Shown here piece by piece: positions 4,566 to 33,336 of a stretch of 56,019 nucleotides of DNA (position 1 is its first letter; the number at the start of each line of letters is the position of its first letter). This DNA comes from Candidatus Scalindua sp. (GTDB taxonomy: Bacteria > Planctomycetota > Brocadiia > Brocadiales > Scalinduaceae). The notes below the pieces were generated by a model. The model was given only the letters and a program-made list of their open reading frames with translations. It did not search any database and was not told where the DNA came from. The stretch covers positions 1 to 56,019 of the forward strand of contig JAIQZU010000066.1 of the NCBI GenBank assembly GCA_021776915.1. Direction: 5' to 3'. The position numbers were made by a program, and so were the translations under genes.

Positions 4566-5759
4566 TTAAATATCTGTTGCAAATTTTTTACCAAATTCTT
4601 CACACCCCTTCAGATCTTCTTCTGAAGGCACCATCCTTAACTTACACCCTTCAGCAACTATCTTGAAACGTAAACTCTTTAAGATGTCTTCAATTATCTG
4701 TACGGCTTCACCACTCCAGCCGTAACATCCAAAAACAGCCGCCGCCTTGCCCCTGATATTCAGTGTTACCAGGCTTGAAATAATATCAAATATTGGTTTT
4801 GGGGCCTTCGCATTCAGTGTAGGAGTCCCAAGGAGAATACCATCAGAGGCATCAATTTCGTCAATTATGGAGTCCATATCAGTTTCTGCAGCATTTAAAA
4901 GTGAAACATCTGTGTCGGGAAGGCACGCCCCTCTATAAATAGATTCTGCCATTTTTTGTGTGCTGCCGTATGATGAAACATATATGATCGTTATCTTTTT
5001 TTTGTCAGGATATTTCTTTGTCTTCCCTGACCATTCTCTGTAAGCATCAATATACTTGTCTAAATTTTCCCTCAGTATAGGACCATGGGAGGGAGCAATA
5101 ATTTCTATATCAATATCCTTTATATTGTTCAGGGCATCAATAACGTGTTTCTTGAAAGGTCTAAGTATGGTATCGTAGTAAAATTCATACGCAGTAAATG
5201 CATCTTCCCTGGAATCCAATTCATCGTTAAATCTTTTATCACTGCAATAATGTGAACCAAATGCATCACAGGGGAATAGTATCTTATCGGTTTCAAGGTA
5301 CGTAAACATAGTGTCAGGCCAATGGAGAAAAGGCGCAGATATAAATTTCAGTACCTTGCCGCCAAGATCAATACTGTCGCCCGCTTTCACCTCTTTGTAA
5401 TCAAATTCTTTGTGCAGAATATTCTTCACAAAAGTTCTGGCGCCTCTGGAAAATACTGGGATTGCCCTGGGCGCTAACTCCATCAATCTGATCAAACCGC
5501 CTGAATGATCCGGCTCCGTATGATTGATAATTATATAATCGATATCTTCCGGCCTGACTAACGATCTTATTTTTGAAATAAAGTCATCGACACAATATGA
5601 TTTTACCGTATCTATAACAGCTATCTTCTCACCGCGAACCAGATAGGAATTATAAGTTGTACCGTGCTTTGTAGGTATCACAATATCAAATGTTACGAGA
5701 CCCGGATCCAATGCACCTATCCAATAAACGCCTTCCTTAATCTTTACTGGTTGACCCAT
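4566..5759 (-). CDS. fprA: Flavodiiron protein (A-type flavoprotein)
   Basis: 397 residues, the normal length for the two-domain flavodiiron family. Residues 1-250 are a beta-lactamase-like domain with the di-iron motif H80-x-E-x-D-H ('NHTEPDHSGG') plus later ligands in 'FLHWPDTMFTY', 'PCDAF' and 'APSHGPIL'. Residues about 255-397 are a flavodoxin domain beginning 'IIYVSSYGSTQKMAESIY' (FMN phosphate loop). These cytoplasmic enzymes reduce O2 to water or NO to N2O using a rubredoxin or F420-type donor. In an anaerobe handling NO, either detoxification role fits. The ATG follows the metV stop directly, and its ribosome-binding site (GGAGAAGGAA) lies inside the end of metV, so the two are translationally coupled. 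Confidence 0.9.
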   Translation of the reverse strand: MGQPVKIKEGVYWIGALDPGLVTFDIVIPTKHGTTYNSYLVRGEKIAVIDTVKSYCVDDFISKIRSLVRPEDIDYIIINHTEPDHSGGLIRLMELAPRAIPVFSRGARTFVKNILHKEFDYKEVKAGDSIDLGGKVLKFISAPFLHWPDTMFTYLETDKILFPCDAFGSHYCSDKRFNDELDSREDAFTAYEFYYDTILRPFKKHVIDALNNIKDIDIEIIAPSHGPILRENLDKYIDAYREWSGKTKKYPDKKKITIIYVSSYGSTQKMAESIYRGACLPDTDVSLLNAAETDMDSIIDEIDASDGILLGTPTLNAKAPKPIFDIISSLVTLNIRGKAAAVFGCYGWSGEAVQIIEDILKSLRFKIVAEGCKLRMVPSEEDLKGCEEFGKKFATDI

Positions 5760-6437
5760 CTATTCCTTCTCCATTTGAAGATGTTTGATTTCTAATTTAC
5801 GTGGAGAACTGCCTGTACTTACAGACCAATTTTTCGGCGGCCTGATATCGTCCATGTAATGCAACATCTGCTGTTTATCAAGCTGGGCATATATTTGACT
5901 CCATACACATGGTATATCTTCCGACACTTCACAGTTACCGCCCATTGATCCTCCACACGGACCGTTAAGCAAACTTTTCGAACACCTGCTTACAGGGCAA
6001 AAACCGCCTGTTTTATCAAGCACACAGTCTCCACAACCTGCACATCTTTCTAAAAACAGTCCCGGTTCTACGGGCGCTCCCATGAAGGTGGTATTAAGTC
6101 CGGGAACTACTCTGACCGGCGTATATCTCTCTGCTAATGTCTGCACTCCCACACCACAGGCAATAGAAACTACCGCATCATAATCATTAACATAATTACC
6201 TACCGGCTCTACATATTCCTGTTCACACTGTCTTAATACAGTCTCTTCCTTTATCTCAAGCTCCCGGCCATCTCTTTTTGCCGCAATGCGTAATTTTAAT
6301 GCAAGCTCTTCTACCTGCTTCTGGCCGCCTGTATGACATACAGTTACACAATCTCCACAGCCGATTATACAAATCTTACTGAAGTCTTTAACCAATTCAT
6401 ATATTTCTTTAAATGGTTTTGACTCAGCTACTATCAT
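5760..6437 (-). CDS. metV: MetV-like zinc/Fe-S protein of methylene-THF reductase
   Basis: 225 residues. It matches the MetV family (methylenetetrahydrofolate reductase C-terminal, MTHFR_C): 'CIIGCGDCVTVCHTGGQKQVEELA' near the N-terminus, then a cysteine-rich segment 'CAGCGDCVLDKTGGFCPVSRCSKSLLNGPCGGSMGGNCEV' (quoted here as a motif; Cys spacing 2,2,8,4,8). In acetogens MetV pairs with MetF in the methyl branch of the Wood-Ljungdahl pathway, which anammox bacteria use for CO2 fixation. No metF is adjacent; the partner in the operon is fprA. The start ATG at 6435-6437 is preceded by AGGGAGA. Confidence 0.85.
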   Translation of the reverse strand: MIVAESKPFKEIYELVKDFSKICIIGCGDCVTVCHTGGQKQVEELALKLRIAAKRDGRELEIKEETVLRQCEQEYVEPVGNYVNDYDAVVSIACGVGVQTLAERYTPVRVVPGLNTTFMGAPVEPGLFLERCAGCGDCVLDKTGGFCPVSRCSKSLLNGPCGGSMGGNCEVSEDIPCVWSQIYAQLDKQQMLHYMDDIRPPKNWSVSTGSSPRKLEIKHLQMEKE

Positions 6438-8453: not shown

Positions 8454-11400
8454 CTACAATATACTCACGTATATCAGGGCAAAGACGGCAAAAACAGTAA
8501 AGTAACAGGCAATAGTAGCCTTTGTTACGATGTGTCTTGTTTTCTTCGATGTCAGATAGAAAACATAAATACTTCCAATAAACCCCGCAAAAATAAATAA
8601 TAGCTCAAGCGCTGAAATATCCCATACTTTATTATTTATAAGAACTTCATGCCCTGTTGATTTGTAAATATTAGTTATTTCCAGTAACATCCAGAAACTT
8701 GCCTTAAGTTTATCCCAGTAAAAGGCGAGATGTCCCATAAGCGCAAGTGGAATTGCTGCATACCCAAAATCAGCAATCCTCTTTTTCGCATTTTCAAACA
8801 AAAACCCGCTGAAGATATAATCAAGAGATCCAATCAAAACAAATGGAATTGCAGATACAAAGATGAAAATTAATGTATAAAGTACAGTTTGATTGATTCC
8901 GGTAAAGTTGTATAAAGATTGAAATGACACTGAATCTATACTAAGAAGGCTTCTGTACTCTACCAAAAGTATACCTAATAATGATAACGAAAGGAATGAA
9001 TCAGCCAGAGATCTATTAGACAATTCGGCTATGTCACTTCCCGGTACCTGAAGATTGACTTTTATTGAACCGTGGCTACAATTCTTGTAACAGTTCATAC
9101 ACAAAACACAGTCTCTACCACTTTCCAACCCATAAGGGTGTAAAAACATCGGGCAGCCTTTTATCAGCCTCGTCCCCAGATAACAATCATGAGTCTCACA
9201 CTGATTCAGACATACACTTCTATTTGCCTTTAAGGAAGTTAATGATGAAAGAGAATAAGCTCCAAGCAAACCACCGAGCGGGCAAACGTATCTACACCAC
9301 ACTCTCCTTTCATAAAGAAGACCGGAAATAACCGCACCGGAAAGAATAGAGATGATCAAAAATGCCGTTAGTATTGATGACCGTGGCATTATGGTCACAC
9401 CTTCCAGCCAGAATATTAAGAGGATCATCCCAATAGTGATATATCTCCCGTATACAACAAATACATCTGGAATTTTAAGATTAAAACATTTTAAACGTTG
9501 CATCCAATCACCTGCCGCAGCAAAAGGACAGACTCCGCATAAAGATCTTCCAGATATCAGGGTTATTAAGTACATACCAAATAAGCCGGTAGACCATAGG
9601 AATACATTTGCAAAATTCAAGAGACCATCTTTACGCCCCATGAATAACATGCAAAGTATAATTATGAGAAATGCAAAGCTCAGGATTTGAATTCCTTGTG
9701 GATAATATTTACTTTCTAAGAATCCCTTAATTGCATTCACTGAAAGAATATTAAAAGACCATTTCTTTTCTCCCCTTGGCATCCCAAAAAATAACTGTTC
9801 AGACGTTATAGTATTACCTTTTGCAAGAAAAACGGCTCGTCTTATAACATTCTCAAGCTCAATTACATTTCCAGGCCAATCATAACTCATCAATCTTCCC
9901 ATCGCATCGTCAGTCACATTTTTCACATCTTTGTGTAATTCCCTGCTGCACTTCTCAAGTAAGTGTTTTGAAAGCATTGGGATACTGCGTTTCTGATTTC
10001 TAAGAGCCTTCAATTGATAAAAATTCTTACCTAAAATATTATAAAGATTCTTATCAAACTTACCCTGTTCAACAGATAAGGCAATACCCTCAGACACAGA
10101 TGCCACAATCCTGGCGTTCGAGAAAACTTTATCGCTTCCATTGACACGATTAAATTCTCCCTCCTGTATGTAATTTAATAATTTGATTTGATTCGCTTGA
10201 TTTAAACTATCCACATGATCCAGAAAAATCGTGCCGGAATCAGCTAATTCGATATATCCCAGACGTGTCGCAACATCCTCTATCTCAACACCTTTACCAA
10301 GAGAGGAGATTTCTTGTTTATCTTTCCCCATTGCATCATCGCAACTTATTACATAAGTGCTCTTTTCATATCCAAAAAGCTCTTCTCCCCATGAATCATT
10401 GTCAATGTCTCTACAATCAACTTCTACAAAAGGCCCTTTGGAACGTTTACCTTTATAATGAATGATTTTTGACATCGGTATCTTGCCTGTCCCATCTTCA
10501 CCGTTTATTAATACTGGTTCGTCAATTAAAACCATAGAATCAACGAAAGCATTTATTTTATCGATATATTTGCCTCTGCCCACAAAGCCTAAACTTTTAA
10601 CATCCTTTTCACCACTCTCTCTTTCTGAAATCTGCACCCTTTTTTTAAGTCGTGCGTATGAAATTGCAAGGGCAATATGGTTTGCCAGTATAGTCAGTCC
10701 CCTGATATCGTCGTATGCGTATTTTCTTTTATCAATAGTCTGGATATTAATTGCGCCAATTAAATCTTTTTTAGTGCCTAATGGCACCGATAGTAGTGAT
10801 GACAAACGCTCTTCATGGACTTCAGAAAAGAATTTCACCCTTGGGTCGGCGTGTACATCTTCAAGCGCTGCGGGTTCACCATACCTGACTACCCATCCGG
10901 TAATTCCTTCATCTAATCGCATTTTTATTTTCTTTATTGTCTTACTATCAAATCCGACAGCCGCTTCTAATACTAGATTGTTAGAGACTGAATCAAGTAA
11001 GAAAATTGAACAGGCATCTGCCTTCATTTCTTCATTAACTTCTTTAACAACCATAGATAAAATTTTACTGATGTCTTCATCCAGATGAAAAAGCTTGGTT
11101 ACTCTATTTATTACGTCCAGTTTTCTCTCTTTCTCAATCTTATCTTCAAGTTCCTCAACTATCTTAATCTTTTCCTTCTCAAAAAAATCAAAGAATGTTT
11201 TCATTCTCATAGAGATAACCCTGCTTAGATAAATGCTCAAGACAGGATTTTTCTGAATCAGCTCTTGTATATCGTTTTTGTAAAGAACAAGGAGCTCAAC
11301 ATCTTCTTTTACTTTTATGGTTGCAAGGTATGGTTCATCAGTTAGCAGGGAGATAGTTCCAAAGCAGCCCCCTTCTCTGAGAATTGCTACAGTAATTTCC

Positions 11401-11624
11401 TCTCCGCCGCTATCAGTTAAAGTTTCTACTACAGATCCGGTATGAATTATAAATAAGCAGTTACCCTTCTGTCCTCTTTCGCAAATAGTCTGTCCTGTCC
11501 CATAATGTTGGACCTGTAGCTTTGAAACAATCTTTTTTAAAAGATTATTAGACAACAGGGAAAAAGGTTCGTAACCCTTTAAAAAATCTCTTTTTTGTTT
11601 GAAAAAACTGGTATCTTCTGTCAT
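8454..11624 (-). CDS. cNMP-GAF-degenerate sigma54 AAA+-polyferredoxin membrane fusion protein
   Basis: 1056 residues. In order: cyclic-nucleotide-binding domain (about 20-135), short coiled coil, GAF (about 180-330), an NtrC-like AAA+ domain (about 345-615) and a membrane region (about 640-1056) with about ten spans and iron-sulfur motifs. The AAA+ part keeps a Walker-A-like 'GEDGTGK' and the 'YDWPGNVIELENVIRRAV' segment. However, the sigma54-contact loop GAFTGA is replaced ('GYEKSTYVIS'), the Walker-B Glu is His ('TIFLDHVD'), and no C-terminal HTH exists. The membrane part has NapH/NosR-like 'CGVCP', 'CRYVCPLGG' and a 4Fe-4S motif 'CVLCMNCYKNC'. It is thus unlikely to activate sigma54 promoters. 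It looks like a signal-gated electron-transfer or redox-sensing membrane protein. Transcribed alone. Confidence 0.85.
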   Translation of the reverse strand: MTEDTSFFKQKRDFLKGYEPFSLLSNNLLKKIVSKLQVQHYGTGQTICERGQKGNCLFIIHTGSVVETLTDSGGEEITVAILREGGCFGTISLLTDEPYLATIKVKEDVELLVLYKNDIQELIQKNPVLSIYLSRVISMRMKTFFDFFEKEKIKIVEELEDKIEKERKLDVINRVTKLFHLDEDISKILSMVVKEVNEEMKADACSIFLLDSVSNNLVLEAAVGFDSKTIKKIKMRLDEGITGWVVRYGEPAALEDVHADPRVKFFSEVHEERLSSLLSVPLGTKKDLIGAINIQTIDKRKYAYDDIRGLTILANHIALAISYARLKKRVQISERESGEKDVKSLGFVGRGKYIDKINAFVDSMVLIDEPVLINGEDGTGKIPMSKIIHYKGKRSKGPFVEVDCRDIDNDSWGEELFGYEKSTYVISCDDAMGKDKQEISSLGKGVEIEDVATRLGYIELADSGTIFLDHVDSLNQANQIKLLNYIQEGEFNRVNGSDKVFSNARIVASVSEGIALSVEQGKFDKNLYNILGKNFYQLKALRNQKRSIPMLSKHLLEKCSRELHKDVKNVTDDAMGRLMSYDWPGNVIELENVIRRAVFLAKGNTITSEQLFFGMPRGEKKWSFNILSVNAIKGFLESKYYPQGIQILSFAFLIIILCMLFMGRKDGLLNFANVFLWSTGLFGMYLITLISGRSLCGVCPFAAAGDWMQRLKCFNLKIPDVFVVYGRYITIGMILLIFWLEGVTIMPRSSILTAFLIISILSGAVISGLLYERRVWCRYVCPLGGLLGAYSLSSLTSLKANRSVCLNQCETHDCYLGTRLIKGCPMFLHPYGLESGRDCVLCMNCYKNCSHGSIKVNLQVPGSDIAELSNRSLADSFLSLSLLGILLVEYRSLLSIDSVSFQSLYNFTGINQTVLYTLIFIFVSAIPFVLIGSLDYIFSGFLFENAKKRIADFGYAAIPLALMGHLAFYWDKLKASFWMLLEITNIYKSTGHEVLINNKVWDISALELLFIFAGFIGSIYVFYLTSKKTRHIVTKATIACYFTVFAVFALIYVSIL

Positions 11625-26168: not shown

Positions 26169-27206
26169 ATGGAACAGTTGGATATCAAAAATTATGGACT
26201 CAGGGAAGAACCTGAGCTATGGAAAATTATCGGCAGCAGTAAAGAGATTAAGGAAGTCCTTAAAGGCATACAGACTGTTCTGGAGAGTGATGTACCGGTA
26301 GTTATTCAGGGAGAAACCGGTACGGGAAAAGAACTTGTTGCAAAAGCCATCCATTACAGAGGCCCAAGGCGCAGACATACCTTTTGCGCCATTAACTGTG
26401 CAGCAATTCCTGAAAATTTGCTGGAAAGTGAATTGATGGGACACGAAAAAGGCGCATTTACGGGAGCAATCCAACAACGTGTTGGAAAACTTGAACAATC
26501 AAATATGGGCACATTATTTCTAGATGAAATAACAGAAATGCCTCAAGTTATGCAAACAAAAATTCTACGCGTAATCGAAGAACAGGTATTTGAAAGAGTG
26601 GGTGGAAATAAAACTATTAAAACAAATGTACGCATTATTTCTGCAAGCAATAAAGATATGTTAAGCGAGGTTCATTCAAATAAATTCAGAGAAGATCTGT
26701 ACTATCGTATCAACGTATTTCGAATATTTATACCCCCATTGCGTGAAAGAAAAGATGATATTCCTGAGCTGGTTGATGTCTTTGTTAAAAGATATGGCGC
26801 TCTATCATGCAAAAAAATTAATAAATTAAATAATCCTGTCATGGATAAACTGATGAGCTACAACTGGCCCGGCAATATCAGACAACTTCAGAACAGCATC
26901 AGAAGGGCTATCCTGATAACAACCAACGATACACTGCTCCCGGAACATTTTGATTTCCCTGACCTTGGTGAAAACGATTTGAGAATGGTTGAATCACTTG
27001 AATCAGGATTATCGACATTGGAAGCAGCGATAAGACGAGGCGAAGTCCTCCCTTTAAGTGAAATTGAAGAAATTTTTATTCGAAGGGCGCTGAACGCAAC
27101 AAATGGCAACATATCAGCCGCAGCAGAGAAATTAGGTATCGGCAGATCCACGGTTTATAGAAAGATGCAGGAACTCGGGATTAACACTGAGGACTATTAC
27201 CAATAA
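26169..27206 (+). CDS. Sigma54-dependent transcriptional activator, AAA+ and Fis HTH only
   Basis: 345 residues. No receiver or other N-terminal sensor is present. The AAA+ domain is intact: Walker A 'GETGTGKELVAKAIHYRG', sigma54-contact loop 'GHEKGAFTGA', Walker B 'GTLFLDEITEM' and 'NWPGNIRQLQNSIRRA'. A Fis-type HTH ends the protein ('NATNGNISAAAEKLGIGRSTVYRKMQELG'). Lacking a sensor, it must be controlled by expression or by a partner protein. It is followed by a 50-base palindrome and the CHASE2-HD-GYP gene, a probable partner in the same regulatory circuit. Confidence 0.93.
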   Translation: MEQLDIKNYGLREEPELWKIIGSSKEIKEVLKGIQTVLESDVPVVIQGETGTGKELVAKAIHYRGPRRRHTFCAINCAAIPENLLESELMGHEKGAFTGAIQQRVGKLEQSNMGTLFLDEITEMPQVMQTKILRVIEEQVFERVGGNKTIKTNVRIISASNKDMLSEVHSNKFREDLYYRINVFRIFIPPLRERKDDIPELVDVFVKRYGALSCKKINKLNNPVMDKLMSYNWPGNIRQLQNSIRRAILITTNDTLLPEHFDFPDLGENDLRMVESLESGLSTLEAAIRRGEVLPLSEIEEIFIRRALNATNGNISAAAEKLGIGRSTVYRKMQELGINTEDYYQ

Positions 27207-27215
27207 TTAGTTTCG

Positions 27216-27265
27216 TTTTAATAGTGACACATCCCATTTATAAATGGGATGTGTCACTATTAAAA
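27216..27265. promoter_or_regulatory. Perfect 50-base palindrome between activator and CHASE2 gene
   Basis: TTTTAATAGTGACACATCCC plus ATTTA at 27216-27240 is repeated exactly as its reverse complement at 27241-27265, with no loop. It starts ten bases after the activator stop and ends five bases before the Shine-Dalgarno of the next gene. It could be an attenuator or processing hairpin between the two genes, or an operator for a dimeric regulator. No other copy was noticed in the window. Confidence 0.75.
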
Positions 27266-27284
27266 GTAAGGGAGGGGGCGTAAT

Positions 27285-29720
27285 ATCAAATACTCAACCA
27301 ATCAAAACTATTACGGTTTTATCCTGGGGCTGGCAATTGCTGCAATCATATCTTTATTATATTTCACAGGGGTATTCAATGGTCTCGAAAGACTCTTATA
27401 TGACTGGCGTCTCACAAATAACACACTCAAAAAAACCCCGCATGTGCCAAAAATAGCCCTGATAGGTATCTCAGACAAAGACATGGAATTACTTGGCAGG
27501 TGGCCCTGGCCCAGGAATCGCTATGCAGAATTACTATATTACTTAAAGGAAGGAGGCGCCGGCGCCATTGCCTTTGATATGTTCTTTGACCTGCCGGATG
27601 TAGAACACATCAAAAACGATGTAGCATTATCAGAGGCGGCAAATAACGCCGGCTCGGTTATTTTCCCGGTCTGGAGTCCTACCACTAATCTTTTCAGAAC
27701 AAGGCCTGAAGATGGAATATATAGAGGAAGATTAAATAAGAATATTGACATAATCGCCAACTCAGCAAAAAGGATAGGCCACTTAAACGTATTTTATGAT
27801 GGTGATGGCGTTGCAAGAAGAACACCCGTCCAGATAGCCGGCACAGATGGCAGTGAAAGATTTATACCACTTTCTCTTGCCTTGTTTCTTGAACAAAAGG
27901 GAATTGATCAGAAACTGGAATTTTACCCAGGAGATTCATTAAAAGTAGGAAACATGCGCATACCTCTTGATTCAAAGAGTTGTATACCCATTAACTATAT
28001 TGATTTCGAGAAACAAGTTAATGTCTATCATGGAACAAATATTAAGTGGATAGAAAAGCTTGGCCAGAAAAAACCCATAACTTTATACTCTTTTTTTGAT
28101 GTATCTCCACAGAATGAAAACAGGGTTCCCGCAGACCAATTCAAAGACAAAATTATTTTTATAGGAGTTGCAACTCCGGGGTCAGAACAAGACGTCCATG
28201 TTACACCATTCGGGCGCAAATTTGGCATATTAATCCAGGCAAATCTTCTATACAATTTCCTGGCAGACAGACTAATCATTATTCCAGGACCTATCTACAC
28301 AATCTCAATACTAACGGCATTATCCATAATCTTCAGCATTTTAATCTTCAGGATACACATCAGGGGCAGTGCTTACCTGTTGATCGCCGGCGGCCTTCTG
28401 GCTTTATTTGCAATTTCAGCAATCGTTGCCTTTACAGGGATTATCTTATTTCAAAAACTAAACCTGATGATAGACATGATTCCATTCGTAGCCATGTCTC
28501 TAATACTTATAGGGACCTGTCTGGCCGTAAATCTAAGTTCAGTCAGTAAAGAATCTGCCATGAGAGATCTGGAATTAAACATGCTTCTTGAGGTAGGTGA
28601 GATTACAACATCCAAGGATGAAACTAATCAATATTCACTAAAATCATTTAAGGAAGATATTGAGATAACGTCTGCACTCGCAATCCCTTCCAGACCACCG
28701 GTAGAATTATTAGAACCGATAAAGAGGATAACACACTGTGAAGCGACTGCCCTGTATATCCTGGATGACAATACTAAAGATTTTGCATATTCTGGATTTA
28801 CGGGTGTCGATGAGTTAAAAAATGGTTCACAAAAGATTGCCGAAATTGTAAATAAATGGATTCAATCTGAGACAAAACCTGTCTGGATTGAGAATGTATC
28901 GAAACATCCGGATCTATCATTTGTAAACAGTAACAACTTACGCTGCTTACTGGCCGTCCCCCTCACTGTAAAAAAACAGACTATAGGAGTACTTTTTCTT
29001 TATAATAAACTGGCGTCAAAGATCTCACCTTTTGCAGAATTTACGTCCGAAGAACTGAGACTAATCTCTTCATTCACTCACCAGATAGCTATTGCAATCG
29101 AGAATCACAGGCTATATGCTGACATACACGATATATTCCTTGATTACATCAAGTCTATTGCAGCAGCGCTTGACGCAAGGGACGCATATACGCACGGACA
29201 CTCCCGTCGGGTAGCAGAGTTCAGCATTGGAATAGGAAAGGAGTTAGGGCTATCAGAAGGTGAATTAGAATTTCTGGAACTCTCTGCCACCATTCACGAT
29301 ATTGGGAAGATTGGAATCAGTGAAAGTGTTTTAAACAAACCCGGTAAGCTAACGGATGAAGAATTTAAGATAATAAAATCACATGTTGTCAAAGGCAGCA
29401 ATATCCTGGAGCCCATGTCCCGGTTACGTGCCTTGATGCCGGGCGTCCGGCATCATCACGAACGCTATGACGGCAGGGGATATCCGGACGGTTTAAAAGG
29501 TGACGAAGTCCATCTTGTTGCCAGGATCATATCAGTTGCTGATACGTACGATGCAATGACAACCAGCAGGGTTTATAGAAGTGGACTGCCAAAGGAAGTA
29601 GCTTTTAAGGAGATCGAAAAAGGAGCTGGAACTCAATTCGACCCCAAACTCGCATTAGCATTTGTTGACTTTATGAAAAAAAATACAGAGATGACAAGTA
29701 CAAAAACCAATCAGAAATAG
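27285..29720 (+). CDS. CHASE2-GAF-HD-GYP membrane sensor phosphodiesterase
   Basis: Read from 27285 (ATC) the protein has 811 residues; the first canonical start, GTG at 27444, gives 758 but removes the N-terminal membrane span. The frame is open from 27270 and encodes a fitting CHASE2 opening ('YYGFILGLAIAAIISLLYFTG', 'NGLERLLYDWRL'). A strong GGGAGGGGG (27270-27278) sits before the ATC. Domains: membrane span, extracytoplasmic CHASE2 (about 50-340), three spans, GAF (about 430-600) and HD-GYP (about 610-790) with 'HDIGK' and 'YDGRGYPDGL'. It should hydrolyse c-di-GMP in response to an outside signal. It follows the sigma54 activator gene. Confidence 0.85.
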   Translation: MKYSTNQNYYGFILGLAIAAIISLLYFTGVFNGLERLLYDWRLTNNTLKKTPHVPKIALIGISDKDMELLGRWPWPRNRYAELLYYLKEGGAGAIAFDMFFDLPDVEHIKNDVALSEAANNAGSVIFPVWSPTTNLFRTRPEDGIYRGRLNKNIDIIANSAKRIGHLNVFYDGDGVARRTPVQIAGTDGSERFIPLSLALFLEQKGIDQKLEFYPGDSLKVGNMRIPLDSKSCIPINYIDFEKQVNVYHGTNIKWIEKLGQKKPITLYSFFDVSPQNENRVPADQFKDKIIFIGVATPGSEQDVHVTPFGRKFGILIQANLLYNFLADRLIIIPGPIYTISILTALSIIFSILIFRIHIRGSAYLLIAGGLLALFAISAIVAFTGIILFQKLNLMIDMIPFVAMSLILIGTCLAVNLSSVSKESAMRDLELNMLLEVGEITTSKDETNQYSLKSFKEDIEITSALAIPSRPPVELLEPIKRITHCEATALYILDDNTKDFAYSGFTGVDELKNGSQKIAEIVNKWIQSETKPVWIENVSKHPDLSFVNSNNLRCLLAVPLTVKKQTIGVLFLYNKLASKISPFAEFTSEELRLISSFTHQIAIAIENHRLYADIHDIFLDYIKSIAAALDARDAYTHGHSRRVAEFSIGIGKELGLSEGELEFLELSATIHDIGKIGISESVLNKPGKLTDEEFKIIKSHVVKGSNILEPMSRLRALMPGVRHHHERYDGRGYPDGLKGDEVHLVARIISVADTYDAMTTSRVYRSGLPKEVAFKEIEKGAGTQFDPKLALAFVDFMKKNTEMTSTKTNQK

Positions 29721-30120: not shown

Positions 30121-31398
30121 GTGTGGAATCAAAAATACAAAAGTAGAAACAAAGGTTTCACGCTTATAGAACTAATCGTAACTATGGGCATAATCGGGAT
30201 ATTGGCAGGTATAGGAGTTGTAACCGTCAGCAAGATAAGGGCGACAAGCCAGCAGACAACGTGTGTAAGCAACCTGAGGAATATATCTCAGGGCCTGCAA
30301 ATGTACTATAATGATTACATGTCCTTCCCAGAGGATGGTTACCCTGACGATGGCAATGATATCTACCCTCTTTCTACCGACCTTGCCGGCTACATAAATA
30401 ATAAATCTACGTTTGTATGCCCTGAAGACAAAGATACAACCAGTACCGGCAACTTTGCAAGTTATGATCCGTATTATGTGGCACGAAAAACCTCTTATGA
30501 TAGTAACGAACTCGCAATTGGCTGCCCGCGCCACAGAGGGGCAAAGAGTTCAACCAGCGTTTTTTCCACTGGCTCTACAGAGATTACAAGTGTTGGTAAA
30601 GTACTGGATAAAAACTTACAGGATATACCACCTGATGGAACCACTGCACAGAGAACCATTAACAGCGTAGGTGACAAGATGACGTTTGCTGATGACAGTA
30701 CCGTTACAGTAAAAAATGCTTCAGGCGGGAGCTATGGCTGCATCCTCGTACAATCCGTCCGGCTTGCTGATGGGACCCTTTATAGTATTATAAAGACACA
30801 GAACAATGGTGCCATAGATGTTCAGGTTACGTCCGGCTCTAAATTCGAGGTTGTTACACCGAGTGCAATCGTAGGCGTAAGGGGTACGCGGTTTACGGTT
30901 ACGACCAGTAGTAATGGCACCATGGCGGGCTACCAGGCAGATGTTACGCTTGATTCCGGAACAGTTACTGTGTTAGACCGTGAAACAGGCAAGACAACCC
31001 TGTTGACCGATGGTGGTACAACGATTGTGGCCACAGGAGATACTGCATTGCATTCTCACTATCATGCTCATGCGGATGGAACATGGCACAGCCATGGACA
31101 TCCATCCCTGAATAATGCTCACCATGGTAAGCATATCCCGGGAACAGAAGGTGTAGAAGAAGAAGATATTGATAGTGACGGGTATACCGTGGCTATGGGA
31201 GATTGTGATGATAACGATTCAAGCGTCAATCCCGGTATGTCTGAGATAACGGATAACGGAATAGATGATGATTGTAATCAATATACACACGATAATGGTG
31301 ATACAACCGTATGTCACAATGGAAGTGCCAAGGTCGTAAACCAATCCGCTCTTGCCGAACATCTGGGACACGGTGATACCATAGGCGAATGCCCGTGA
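30121..31398 (+). CDS. Prepilin-type protein with FecR, His-rich and MopE-like metal-binding segments
   Basis: 425 residues from a GTG start. A type IV prepilin leader 'RNKG|FTLIELIVTMGIIGILAG' (cleavage after G12, E5 present) is followed by a pseudopilin-like head to about residue 145. Then comes a FecR-type beta fold ('VTPSAIVGVRGTRFTV'), a His-rich run ('HSHYHAHADGTWHSHGH'), one MopE-like Ca/metal-binding loop ('DGYTVAMGDCDDNDSSVNPG...NGIDDDCNQ') and a C-terminal 'VCHNGSAKVV...HLGHGDTIGECP' motif. It is probably exported and assembled or anchored by the T2SS/T4P-like machinery downstream. The first 120 residues are nearly identical to the next gene, indicating recent tandem duplication. 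Confidence 0.82.
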   Translation: MWNQKYKSRNKGFTLIELIVTMGIIGILAGIGVVTVSKIRATSQQTTCVSNLRNISQGLQMYYNDYMSFPEDGYPDDGNDIYPLSTDLAGYINNKSTFVCPEDKDTTSTGNFASYDPYYVARKTSYDSNELAIGCPRHRGAKSSTSVFSTGSTEITSVGKVLDKNLQDIPPDGTTAQRTINSVGDKMTFADDSTVTVKNASGGSYGCILVQSVRLADGTLYSIIKTQNNGAIDVQVTSGSKFEVVTPSAIVGVRGTRFTVTTSSNGTMAGYQADVTLDSGTVTVLDRETGKTTLLTDGGTTIVATGDTALHSHYHAHADGTWHSHGHPSLNNAHHGKHIPGTEGVEEEDIDSDGYTVAMGDCDDNDSSVNPGMSEITDNGIDDDCNQYTHDNGDTTVCHNGSAKVVNQSALAEHLGHGDTIGECP

Positions 31399-31521
31399 AG
31401 CGAAAAGTAGGGCAATCCTGGTTGGTTCAGGTCACGCCTTAGGCGGATCTGCCTTCGGCACGACTTGCCCGCAAGAACGATATTCAGACTGTGTCACAAT
31501 AACAAAAAAACATAATTTGTC

Positions 31522-33336
31522 ATGTGGAAATTAAAATACAAAAATAGAAACAAAGGTTTCACGCTTATAGAACTAATCGTAACTATGGGCATAATCGGTA
31601 TATTGGCAGGTATAGGAGTTGTAACCGTCAGCAAGATAAGGGCGACAAACCAGCAGACACAGTGTGTAAGCAACCTGAGGGGGGTATCACAGGGACTGCA
31701 ATTGTACTATAACGATTTCAGGGTATTTCCTGATGACGGTTATCCGGATGATGCTGATGACACATACCCGCTTTCTACCGAGCTTGCCGGCTATATAACA
31801 ACAAAATCCACATTTATCTGCCCTACTGATAATGACCCAGCCAGTACCACCAACTTCGCAAGTTATGACCCGTATTATGTGGCACGAAAAGGCTCTTATG
31901 ATAGTTACGAACTCGCCATCGGCTGCCCAAGACACAGAGGGGCCACCAACGCTACAAGCCTGTTATCCTCGGGTTCCACAGAGATTACGAAGATAGGTAC
32001 GGTACTGGCTAACGGAGTGGAGATGCCGCCGGATGGAACTAAAGTCCAGAGAACTATCAGCAACGTAAATGACGTGATGACCTTCTCTGATGAAAGCACT
32101 GTCACCATCAGCAATGTTCAAGCCGGTTATGGTGTATTCCTTCTGCAATCAGTCGTACTCGCTGATGGTACTGTATACAGTACCATCAGGGTGGAGAATG
32201 ACGGGAATATAGATGTTCAGGTCACTTCAGGGTCTAAATTCGAGATAGTTACGCCGAGTGCAATTGTAGGCGTAAGAGGTACAAAGTTTAGTGTTCAGAC
32301 CTCAAACAATGGCTACACAACAGATGTATCACTCACTTTCGGAACAGTCACTACGTTAAACCGTGAAACGGGCGAGGCAACTGTACTCAGCATTGGTGGC
32401 ATAGTTAATGACACAATAGAAATAACAACACATTCACACATGCATTACCATGTTGATGGTACTTACCATGACCACTCACATCTGGCTCTGAATAATGCAC
32501 ACCATGGTCTTCTTGTGGCAGCCAAAAAGGCTGCTGCCGCAAGTACTGATGCTGATGTAGACAATGATGGAGATGGGTATTCAGAGAATGAGGGAGACTG
32601 TGATGATACTAATGCTGCTATTTATCCGGGTGCTACTGATATTCCCGGTAATGGTATAGATGAGGATTGCGATGGCCAGGATGCAACAACAGACCCCAAT
32701 GACGTCGACGATGATGGTGATACATATACAGAGAATCAGGGTGACTGTAACGATGCAGATTCCTCAGTCAACCCCGGGGTTGCTGAGATACCATACAATG
32801 GCAAGGACGATGACTGTAATCCTGCAACTCTTGATGACGACATAGATGGTGACACGTATCTCGCAGCCACAGACTGTGATGATAACGATGCAAACGTCAA
32901 TCCTGGCAAGGCTGAGATACCTGATAACGGTATAGACGACGACTGTAATCCGACTACCCTTGACAGCTCTGCTGACCAGGCACTTGTTGACTTGATTAAT
33001 CAGGAGCCACCAATGAATTCAAGTGATCTGAAGAGTGCTTTGATAGCCGCATCACCATTATCATCGACCGTTCTAACTGCGGCGATAGATAGATCACCAG
33101 CAATGGTATCCAGCGACCTTAAAGATGTATTACTTAATCAATCGTCATTAGCAGATAATGTCCTCCTTGCAGCAATAGACAGGGCAGATCCAATGATCTC
33201 CAGTGACCTTAAGGACGTATTAATTGATGAATCTCCGTTGGCAGCCGATGTACTACAGGCTGCTATCGATAGAAATCCGGCTATGGACGAGGACGATTTA
33301 GAGAGTGTCTTAGAAGAAAATGGTTATGATGATTGA
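31522..33336 (+). CDS. Prepilin-type protein with FecR, three MopE-like loops and C-terminal helical repeats
   Basis: 604 residues, paralogue of the preceding gene. Same prepilin leader (G12|FTLIE), pseudopilin-like head, FecR fold ('VTPSAIVGVRGTKFSV') and His-rich run ('HSHMHYHVDGTYHDHSH'). It then carries three MopE-type loops ('DGDGYSENEGDCDDTNAAIYPG', 'DGDTYTENQGDCNDADSSVNPG', 'DGDTYLAATDCDDNDANVNPG'; each ends 'NG-D-DC') and three ~30-residue repeats of the form 'SSDLKDVL...SPLADNVLLAAIDR'. The repeats may mediate protein contacts. Likely a large surface or fibre-tip protein. Both genes open with the same few bases around the start codon. Confidence 0.82.
   Translation: MWKLKYKNRNKGFTLIELIVTMGIIGILAGIGVVTVSKIRATNQQTQCVSNLRGVSQGLQLYYNDFRVFPDDGYPDDADDTYPLSTELAGYITTKSTFICPTDNDPASTTNFASYDPYYVARKGSYDSYELAIGCPRHRGATNATSLLSSGSTEITKIGTVLANGVEMPPDGTKVQRTISNVNDVMTFSDESTVTISNVQAGYGVFLLQSVVLADGTVYSTIRVENDGNIDVQVTSGSKFEIVTPSAIVGVRGTKFSVQTSNNGYTTDVSLTFGTVTTLNRETGEATVLSIGGIVNDTIEITTHSHMHYHVDGTYHDHSHLALNNAHHGLLVAAKKAAAASTDADVDNDGDGYSENEGDCDDTNAAIYPGATDIPGNGIDEDCDGQDATTDPNDVDDDGDTYTENQGDCNDADSSVNPGVAEIPYNGKDDDCNPATLDDDIDGDTYLAATDCDDNDANVNPGKAEIPDNGIDDDCNPTTLDSSADQALVDLINQEPPMNSSDLKSALIAASPLSSTVLTAAIDRSPAMVSSDLKDVLLNQSSLADNVLLAAIDRADPMISSDLKDVLIDESPLAADVLQAAIDRNPAMDEDDLESVLEENGYDD

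Follow-up and report, generated by a model that had tools for sequence, protein, structure and literature searches.

What does a protein do that begins like a sigma54-dependent activator and ends as an iron-sulfur membrane protein? The question is raised by a gene in the window, i.e., the whole stretch of 56,019 nucleotides analysed here, which comes from the anammox bacterium Candidatus Scalindua. The original prediction, made from the sequence alone, was that a former transcription activator had become a switch on a membrane electron-transfer or redox-sensing unit. We used protein and profile searches over 392 Planctomycetota genomes; phyla beyond Planctomycetota were sampled via plasmid records only. 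Searches of open-access literature turned up no paper that describes this architecture.

Domain Architecture and Intactness of the Gene

The original prediction joined four domains in one protein, and Pfam recovered all of them: cNMP_binding (PF00027; 1.1e-20), GAF_2 (3.1e-14), Sigma54_activat (PF00158; 2.2e-30, in two pieces with the break at the GAFTGA position) followed by AAA_lid_14 (1.1e-20), and two Fer4_5 (PF12801) matches above cut-off (3.5e-07). The first of these, however, stands only as a cyclic nucleotide-binding (CNB) fold that lacks the phosphate-binding Glu and Arg. The top NCBIfam match is NifA with 217.9 bits, the cut-off being far higher (528.85). The GAF-AAA+-lid order is that of NifA/NtrC-type bacterial enhancer-binding proteins (bEBPs); unlike these, the window protein is devoid of the GAFTGA loop, the Walker-B Glu, the arginine fingers, the sensor II Arg and the HTH, and a membrane domain follows instead (Table 1).

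Table 1. Features of the fused gene, in window coordinates.
Feature	Position	Strand	Basis
Whole gene, 1056 aa: CNB-GAF-pseudo AAA(+)-lid-polyferredoxin	8454..11624	-	ATG start, Pfam, orthologs
CNB-fold domain, aa 39-126; Glu replaced by Thr90, Arg by Tyr99	11247..11510	-	Pfam, PKG alignment, subgroup comparison
GAF domain, aa 183-321	10662..11078	-	Pfam
NtrC-type AAA+ core, aa 348-531, catalytically degenerate	10032..10583	-	Pfam and column comparison
Walker A GEDGTGK, aa 375-381, retained	10482..10502	-	Alignment
Variable insert replacing the GAFTGA loop, aa 420-452	10269..10367	-	Alignment; orthologs 39-97% identical
Former Walker B IFLDHV, aa 466-471; Glu replaced by His470	10212..10229	-	Alignment
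AAA+ lid, aa 542-614; sensor II Arg lost, no HTH after it	9783..10001	-	Pfam, columns
Polyferredoxin membrane domain, aa 640-1056, about nine TM-like segments	8457..9707	-	Fer4_5, alignment, hydropathy
First TM cysteine motif, C696xxC699P700	9525..9539	-	Invariant in 12 diverse fused proteins
Second TM cysteine motif, C777xxxC781P782	9279..9296	-	Invariant in the same 12 fused proteins
Two predicted [4Fe-4S] sites: C805/C809/C814/C824 and C839xxC842xxC845xxxC849	9078..9212	-	Eight invariant cysteines

It should be noted that the degenerate catalytic motifs, together with a S. rubra copy that is split into several frames (probably an assembly error), could be taken as signs of an assembly fusion of two genes or of a decaying pseudogene. 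This reading, to which we assign almost no probability, is already refuted by the orthologs. The frame is unbroken in ten other Scalindua/Brocadiaceae assemblies and the neighbouring genes are conserved where contigs reach far enough, which excludes an assembly fusion; the orthologs in named assemblies are essentially full length, with 70-91% identity. The dN/dS ratio is ~0.09-0.13 overall and ~0.06-0.21 for the AAA+ core and lid, and every domain is constrained. Because the ratio of the degenerate AAA+ domain is as low as that of the other domains, this domain is maintained and not decaying.

Loss of Activator Function

We compared each alignment column of 18 fused proteins with that of 20 canonical activators, of which 12 belong to the window genome (including the one at 26169) and eight to other genomes of the phylum. 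The GAFTGA loop, the Walker-B Glu and both arginine fingers were present in all 20 canonical activators, the loop with minor variants (e.g., GSFTGA, GAYTGA, GAFTDA), and in none of the 18 fused proteins. The sensor II Arg was found in 20 of 20 canonical versus two of 18 fused proteins, and the Walker A Lys in 20 of 20 versus 17 of 18. In the subgroup of the window protein, the place of GAFTGA is occupied by a rapidly changing insert of ~30 residues, and the Walker-B DE has become DH in the window protein and NH in several orthologs (Asp469 to Asn). No HTH was detected in Pfam scans of the fused proteins, the window protein included. Thus, the proposed loss of the GAFTGA loop, the Walker-B Glu and the HTH was confirmed by Pfam and alignment, and the window protein has in addition lost both arginine fingers, the sensor II Arg and sensor I. 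The activator at 26169, which had been offered for comparison, is indeed a canonical sensor-less bEBP with HTH_8; a CHASE2-GAF-HD protein follows it (26169-29720).

In canonical activators, GAFTGA contacts sigma54, whereas the Walker-B Glu and the arginine finger sense the gamma-phosphate (PMC7175178). Judged by their residues, the fused AAA+ domains may still bind nucleotide; they should not be expected to hydrolyse ATP or to remodel sigma54. Even nucleotide binding may be dispensable, because the Walker A Lys is missing from the ortholog in L017. The AlphaFold model of the AAA+ region (pLDDT 41.4) was not informative, as its alignment contained close orthologs only.

A functional, membrane-tethered sigma54-dependent activator is what the Sigma54_activat match would suggest; nevertheless, this explanation is effectively refuted and its probability negligible, given that GAFTGA, the Walker-B Glu, the arginine fingers, the sensor II Arg and the HTH are all missing and that the family is found in a phylum without sigma54. 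Two of the 18 fused proteins come from cyanobacteria. Sigma54 and its activators are missing from all 29 cyanobacteria of one survey (PMC3162934), RpoN is missing from 38 cyanobacterial species in another (PMC3372290), and PF04552 was absent from S. elongatus, the control cyanobacterium. Since members of the family occur in this phylum, sigma54 activation cannot be their common function. The predicted retirement from sigma54 activation is therefore strongly supported, all 18 fused proteins being without GAFTGA, the Walker-B Glu and the arginine fingers. The sigma54-contacting loop has also been lost by the bEBP homologs TyrR, DhaR, HupR and VpsR (PMC3162934); however, TyrR, DhaR and HupR are DNA-binding regulators at sigma70 promoters, whereas the fused family consists of membrane proteins without an HTH.

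Distribution and Origin of the Family

A search for the same architecture, which had been proposed along with the original prediction, showed that it recurs. Two separate score classes were obtained, AAA+-fused polyferredoxins with >500 bits and others with <230. The AAA+-polyferredoxin unit is common to five subgroups, of which three belong to the anammox order of the window: F1, the subgroup of the window protein; F2, comprising a second protein of the same genome (L001) and those of L035 and L043; F3 (L018, L019, L034); F4, from other Planctomycetota (L021-L023); and F5, from two cyanobacterial plasmids. Within the order, the fused proteins are patchily distributed: they occur in nearly all genomes sampled from the window's family and one further lineage, and none was found in those sampled from families f2 and f3. 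The cyanobacterial CNB-AAA-4Fe-4S proteins (WP_281009908.1, BAZ78296.1) have the architecture and the motif losses of the window protein, from which they differ by the lack of GAF and by the position of the gene, 5-17 bp upstream of cysK. They are annotated merely as cyclic nucleotide-binding or nitrogen assimilation regulatory proteins.

In the AAA+ tree, the fused proteins, on long branches, were separated from the 20 canonical activators with support of 100/99, a split that is partly circular as the motif columns were kept. The polyferredoxin tree, which contains no AAA+ data, placed the fused proteins and one stand-alone Deinococcus protein opposite 23 others (95/91); within that side, support for monophyly of the fused proteins alone was 46/52. 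Both trees suggest that the AAA+ and polyferredoxin domains have travelled together, and a single ancient joining would be the simplest reading.

Input Domains and Gene Neighbourhoods

With an E-value limit of 1e-6, the CNB fold of the window protein matched 81 distinct sequences in PDB. In the alignment to PKG chains, the phosphate-binding site reads FGERALLYDEPRSAT in PKG versus FGTISLLTDEPYLAT in the window protein. The literal idea of a cNMP sensor was rejected on this alignment, in which Thr and Tyr stand at the Glu and Arg sites; the cyclic-nucleotide input once supposed for this protein is thus not upheld, and binding of cNMP via the usual contacts appears unlikely. The F1 orthologs share the loss, with Thr or Ala in place of Glu. 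The F3 domains keep both phosphate-binding residues, which makes cyclic nucleotide binding by F3 plausible. The F2 domains keep the Glu and lack the Arg, despite a cyclase gene beside the F2 gene, and the partial site is in tension with this neighbour. In three genomes, the F2 gene lies directly downstream of a CHASE2-cyclase gene of the same direction (gaps of 22, 13 and ~100 bp), the cyclase being Pfam-tested in L001 and recognised by sequence similarity in the remaining genomes.

The AAA+-polyferredoxin unit is constant while the N-terminal part changes: CNB in L018, L022 and L038, CNB and GAF in the window protein, and HisKA-HisKA-REC in L044. The fused gene of L044 adjoins a gene for an FHA-GAF-PAS-HisKA-HATPase histidine kinase, and the two (L044:1899-7581, G253) could constitute a two-component system whose output would be redox activity at the membrane.

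At the G300 locus, the F3 gene and a Rieske/cytochrome b/NAD(P)-oxidoreductase cluster are oriented divergently, and the neighbours at the matching G378 locus are similar to these by sequence. On the cyanobacterial plasmids, the fused genes directly upstream of cysK (L038:8518-12155 and L039:8386-12077) both have genes for a PetC-like Rieske protein and psbA nearby, and L038 also has genes of the DsrE, rhodanese and glutaredoxin families; the neighbourhood is perhaps a sulfur or low-oxygen island. A Tll0287-like (PF11845) gene is located near the fused gene both in an anammox genome (L034:8613-9389) and on a cyanobacterial plasmid (L038:15506-16132).

The window gene is flanked by genes for HD-GYP, a small CarboxypepD_reg-like protein and FHA-trypsin, and no fixed partner enzyme lies next to it. 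A functional link to the pair of a flavodiiron protein (ODP and flavodoxin) and a DUF5981 (MTHFR C-terminal) Fe-S protein at 4566-6437 was rejected, the pair being adjacent in L004 only among the orthologs with long flanks. Elsewhere, the window encodes a 690-aa protein with a beta-propeller region (weakly cytochrome D1-like) followed by cytochrome c and MauG-like matches (521-2593), and two adjoining proteins with an N-methylation motif, FecR and MopE copper-binding repeats (30121-33336).

The Polyferredoxin Membrane Domain

Twelve cysteines, in the motifs CxxCP and CxxxCP and in two sets of four, are invariant over 12 diverse fused proteins. The paired membrane motifs are common to NapH, NosR and PceC (PMC5928378, PMC8238504), proteins of the NapH/NosR/PceC(RdhC) type (PF12801), and in NapH and NosR, as in the window protein, two 4Fe-4S motifs come after them. 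Oxidation of quinol by the membrane segments of NapH has been proposed (PMC5928378). Membrane electron transfer is expected for these proteins and likewise for the window protein, which differs from them in the lack of an FMN-binding domain and of a nap/nos context, in its CNB-GAF-pseudoAAA+ front and in extra C-terminal TM segments. Given a cytosolic N terminus, both membrane motifs and both clusters would be on the cytosolic side, as would the positive loops. The AlphaFold model of the domain (pLDDT 39.6) was likewise uninformative, again with close orthologs only in the alignment, and a PDB profile search using the polyferredoxin alignment gave no match. In Planctomycetota, polyferredoxins with an N-terminal extension (L061, L064, L074) adjoin genes for NapG/MauM-like ferredoxins; the extension is YHS-like by eye in L064 and L074, and all three may belong to Nos-type clusters.

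Proposed Role

We consider it somewhat probable, judging from sequence, that the front of the protein serves as a gate: cytosolic, controlled by signals and unable to hydrolyse ATP, it would act on a membrane electron-transfer module. The NapH/NosR-type part would carry electrons to or from a donor or acceptor in the membrane, probably quinol, and exchange them with a partner in the cytosol, along a path made of the two cytosolic [4Fe-4S] clusters and the CxxCP/CxxxCP membrane motifs. The cytosolic front would act as a pseudo-enhancer-binding protein, in which the CNB fold and GAF feed the AAA+ domain in the window protein; this domain probably binds nucleotide, with neither hydrolysis nor contact with sigma54. 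Ligand binding by the sensors and ATP/ADP occupancy would alter the packing of AAA+ and lid, or their oligomerisation, and the altered state would open or close electron flow through the adjoining Fe-S domain. The sequences themselves establish the anatomy, the lost motifs, the conservation, the recurrence over five subgroups and the exchange of input domains; that the front lies in the cytosol, binds nucleotide and acts as a gate, and in which direction, is inferred. Of the two outputs foreseen originally, the switch on an electron-transfer unit is favoured, since the AAA-polyferredoxin core stays the same while the inputs around it are exchanged, and the signal is inferred to run into the polyferredoxin because any other output domain is absent; for the same reason, sensing by the Fe-S part is less likely.

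Conversely, the polyferredoxin could be a redox or quinone sensor, with the pseudo-AAA+ ring as an output that docks to another regulator, e.g., a canonical activator. bEBPs normally relay signals through their AAA+ domain, NosR was initially considered a regulator (PMC5928378), and the genome contains ~15 canonical bEBPs and RpoN. This alternative is nevertheless unlikely, as the cyanobacterial carriers belong to a phylum without sigma54 (PMC3162934, PMC3372290). Moreover, the fused proteins have no DNA-binding or other output domain, and their N-terminal positions are already occupied by classical inputs, REC included.

The pseudo-AAA+ domain might also be an assembly or dimerisation scaffold that holds polyferredoxin protomers together or aids Fe-S insertion, with no gating. 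The catalytic residues are gone while the lid and Walker A are retained, and some polyferredoxin relatives are joined to CtaG-like or YHS-like domains (read by eye), fusions that point to cofactor-assembly contexts. However, varied sensory domains have been kept in front, one of them with an intact-looking REC and HisKA pair, and we regard a mere scaffold as improbable.

Implications

Control of membrane redox modules is mostly ascribed to gene expression and substrate supply. The fused family suggests that membrane redox machinery obtained a control part through the recruitment of a transcription activator. Tentatively, and with somewhat less confidence than for the gate itself, we propose that these proteins form a class of membrane electron-transfer proteins controlled by signals: an AAA+ domain retired from sigma54 activation would gate the Fe-S electron path, and CNB, GAF or two-component inputs would control the gate. 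If so, the REC-bearing member would be a response regulator whose output is electron transfer and not transcription. The findings are also a warning about annotation, as the labels of sigma54 or nitrogen regulator given to fused proteins are wrong. The fusion of the signalling half of an activator onto a polyferredoxin, in at least two phyla, would be a new fate for AAA+ activators; it would also imply that electron flow is controlled post-translationally, anammox bacteria being among the organisms concerned.
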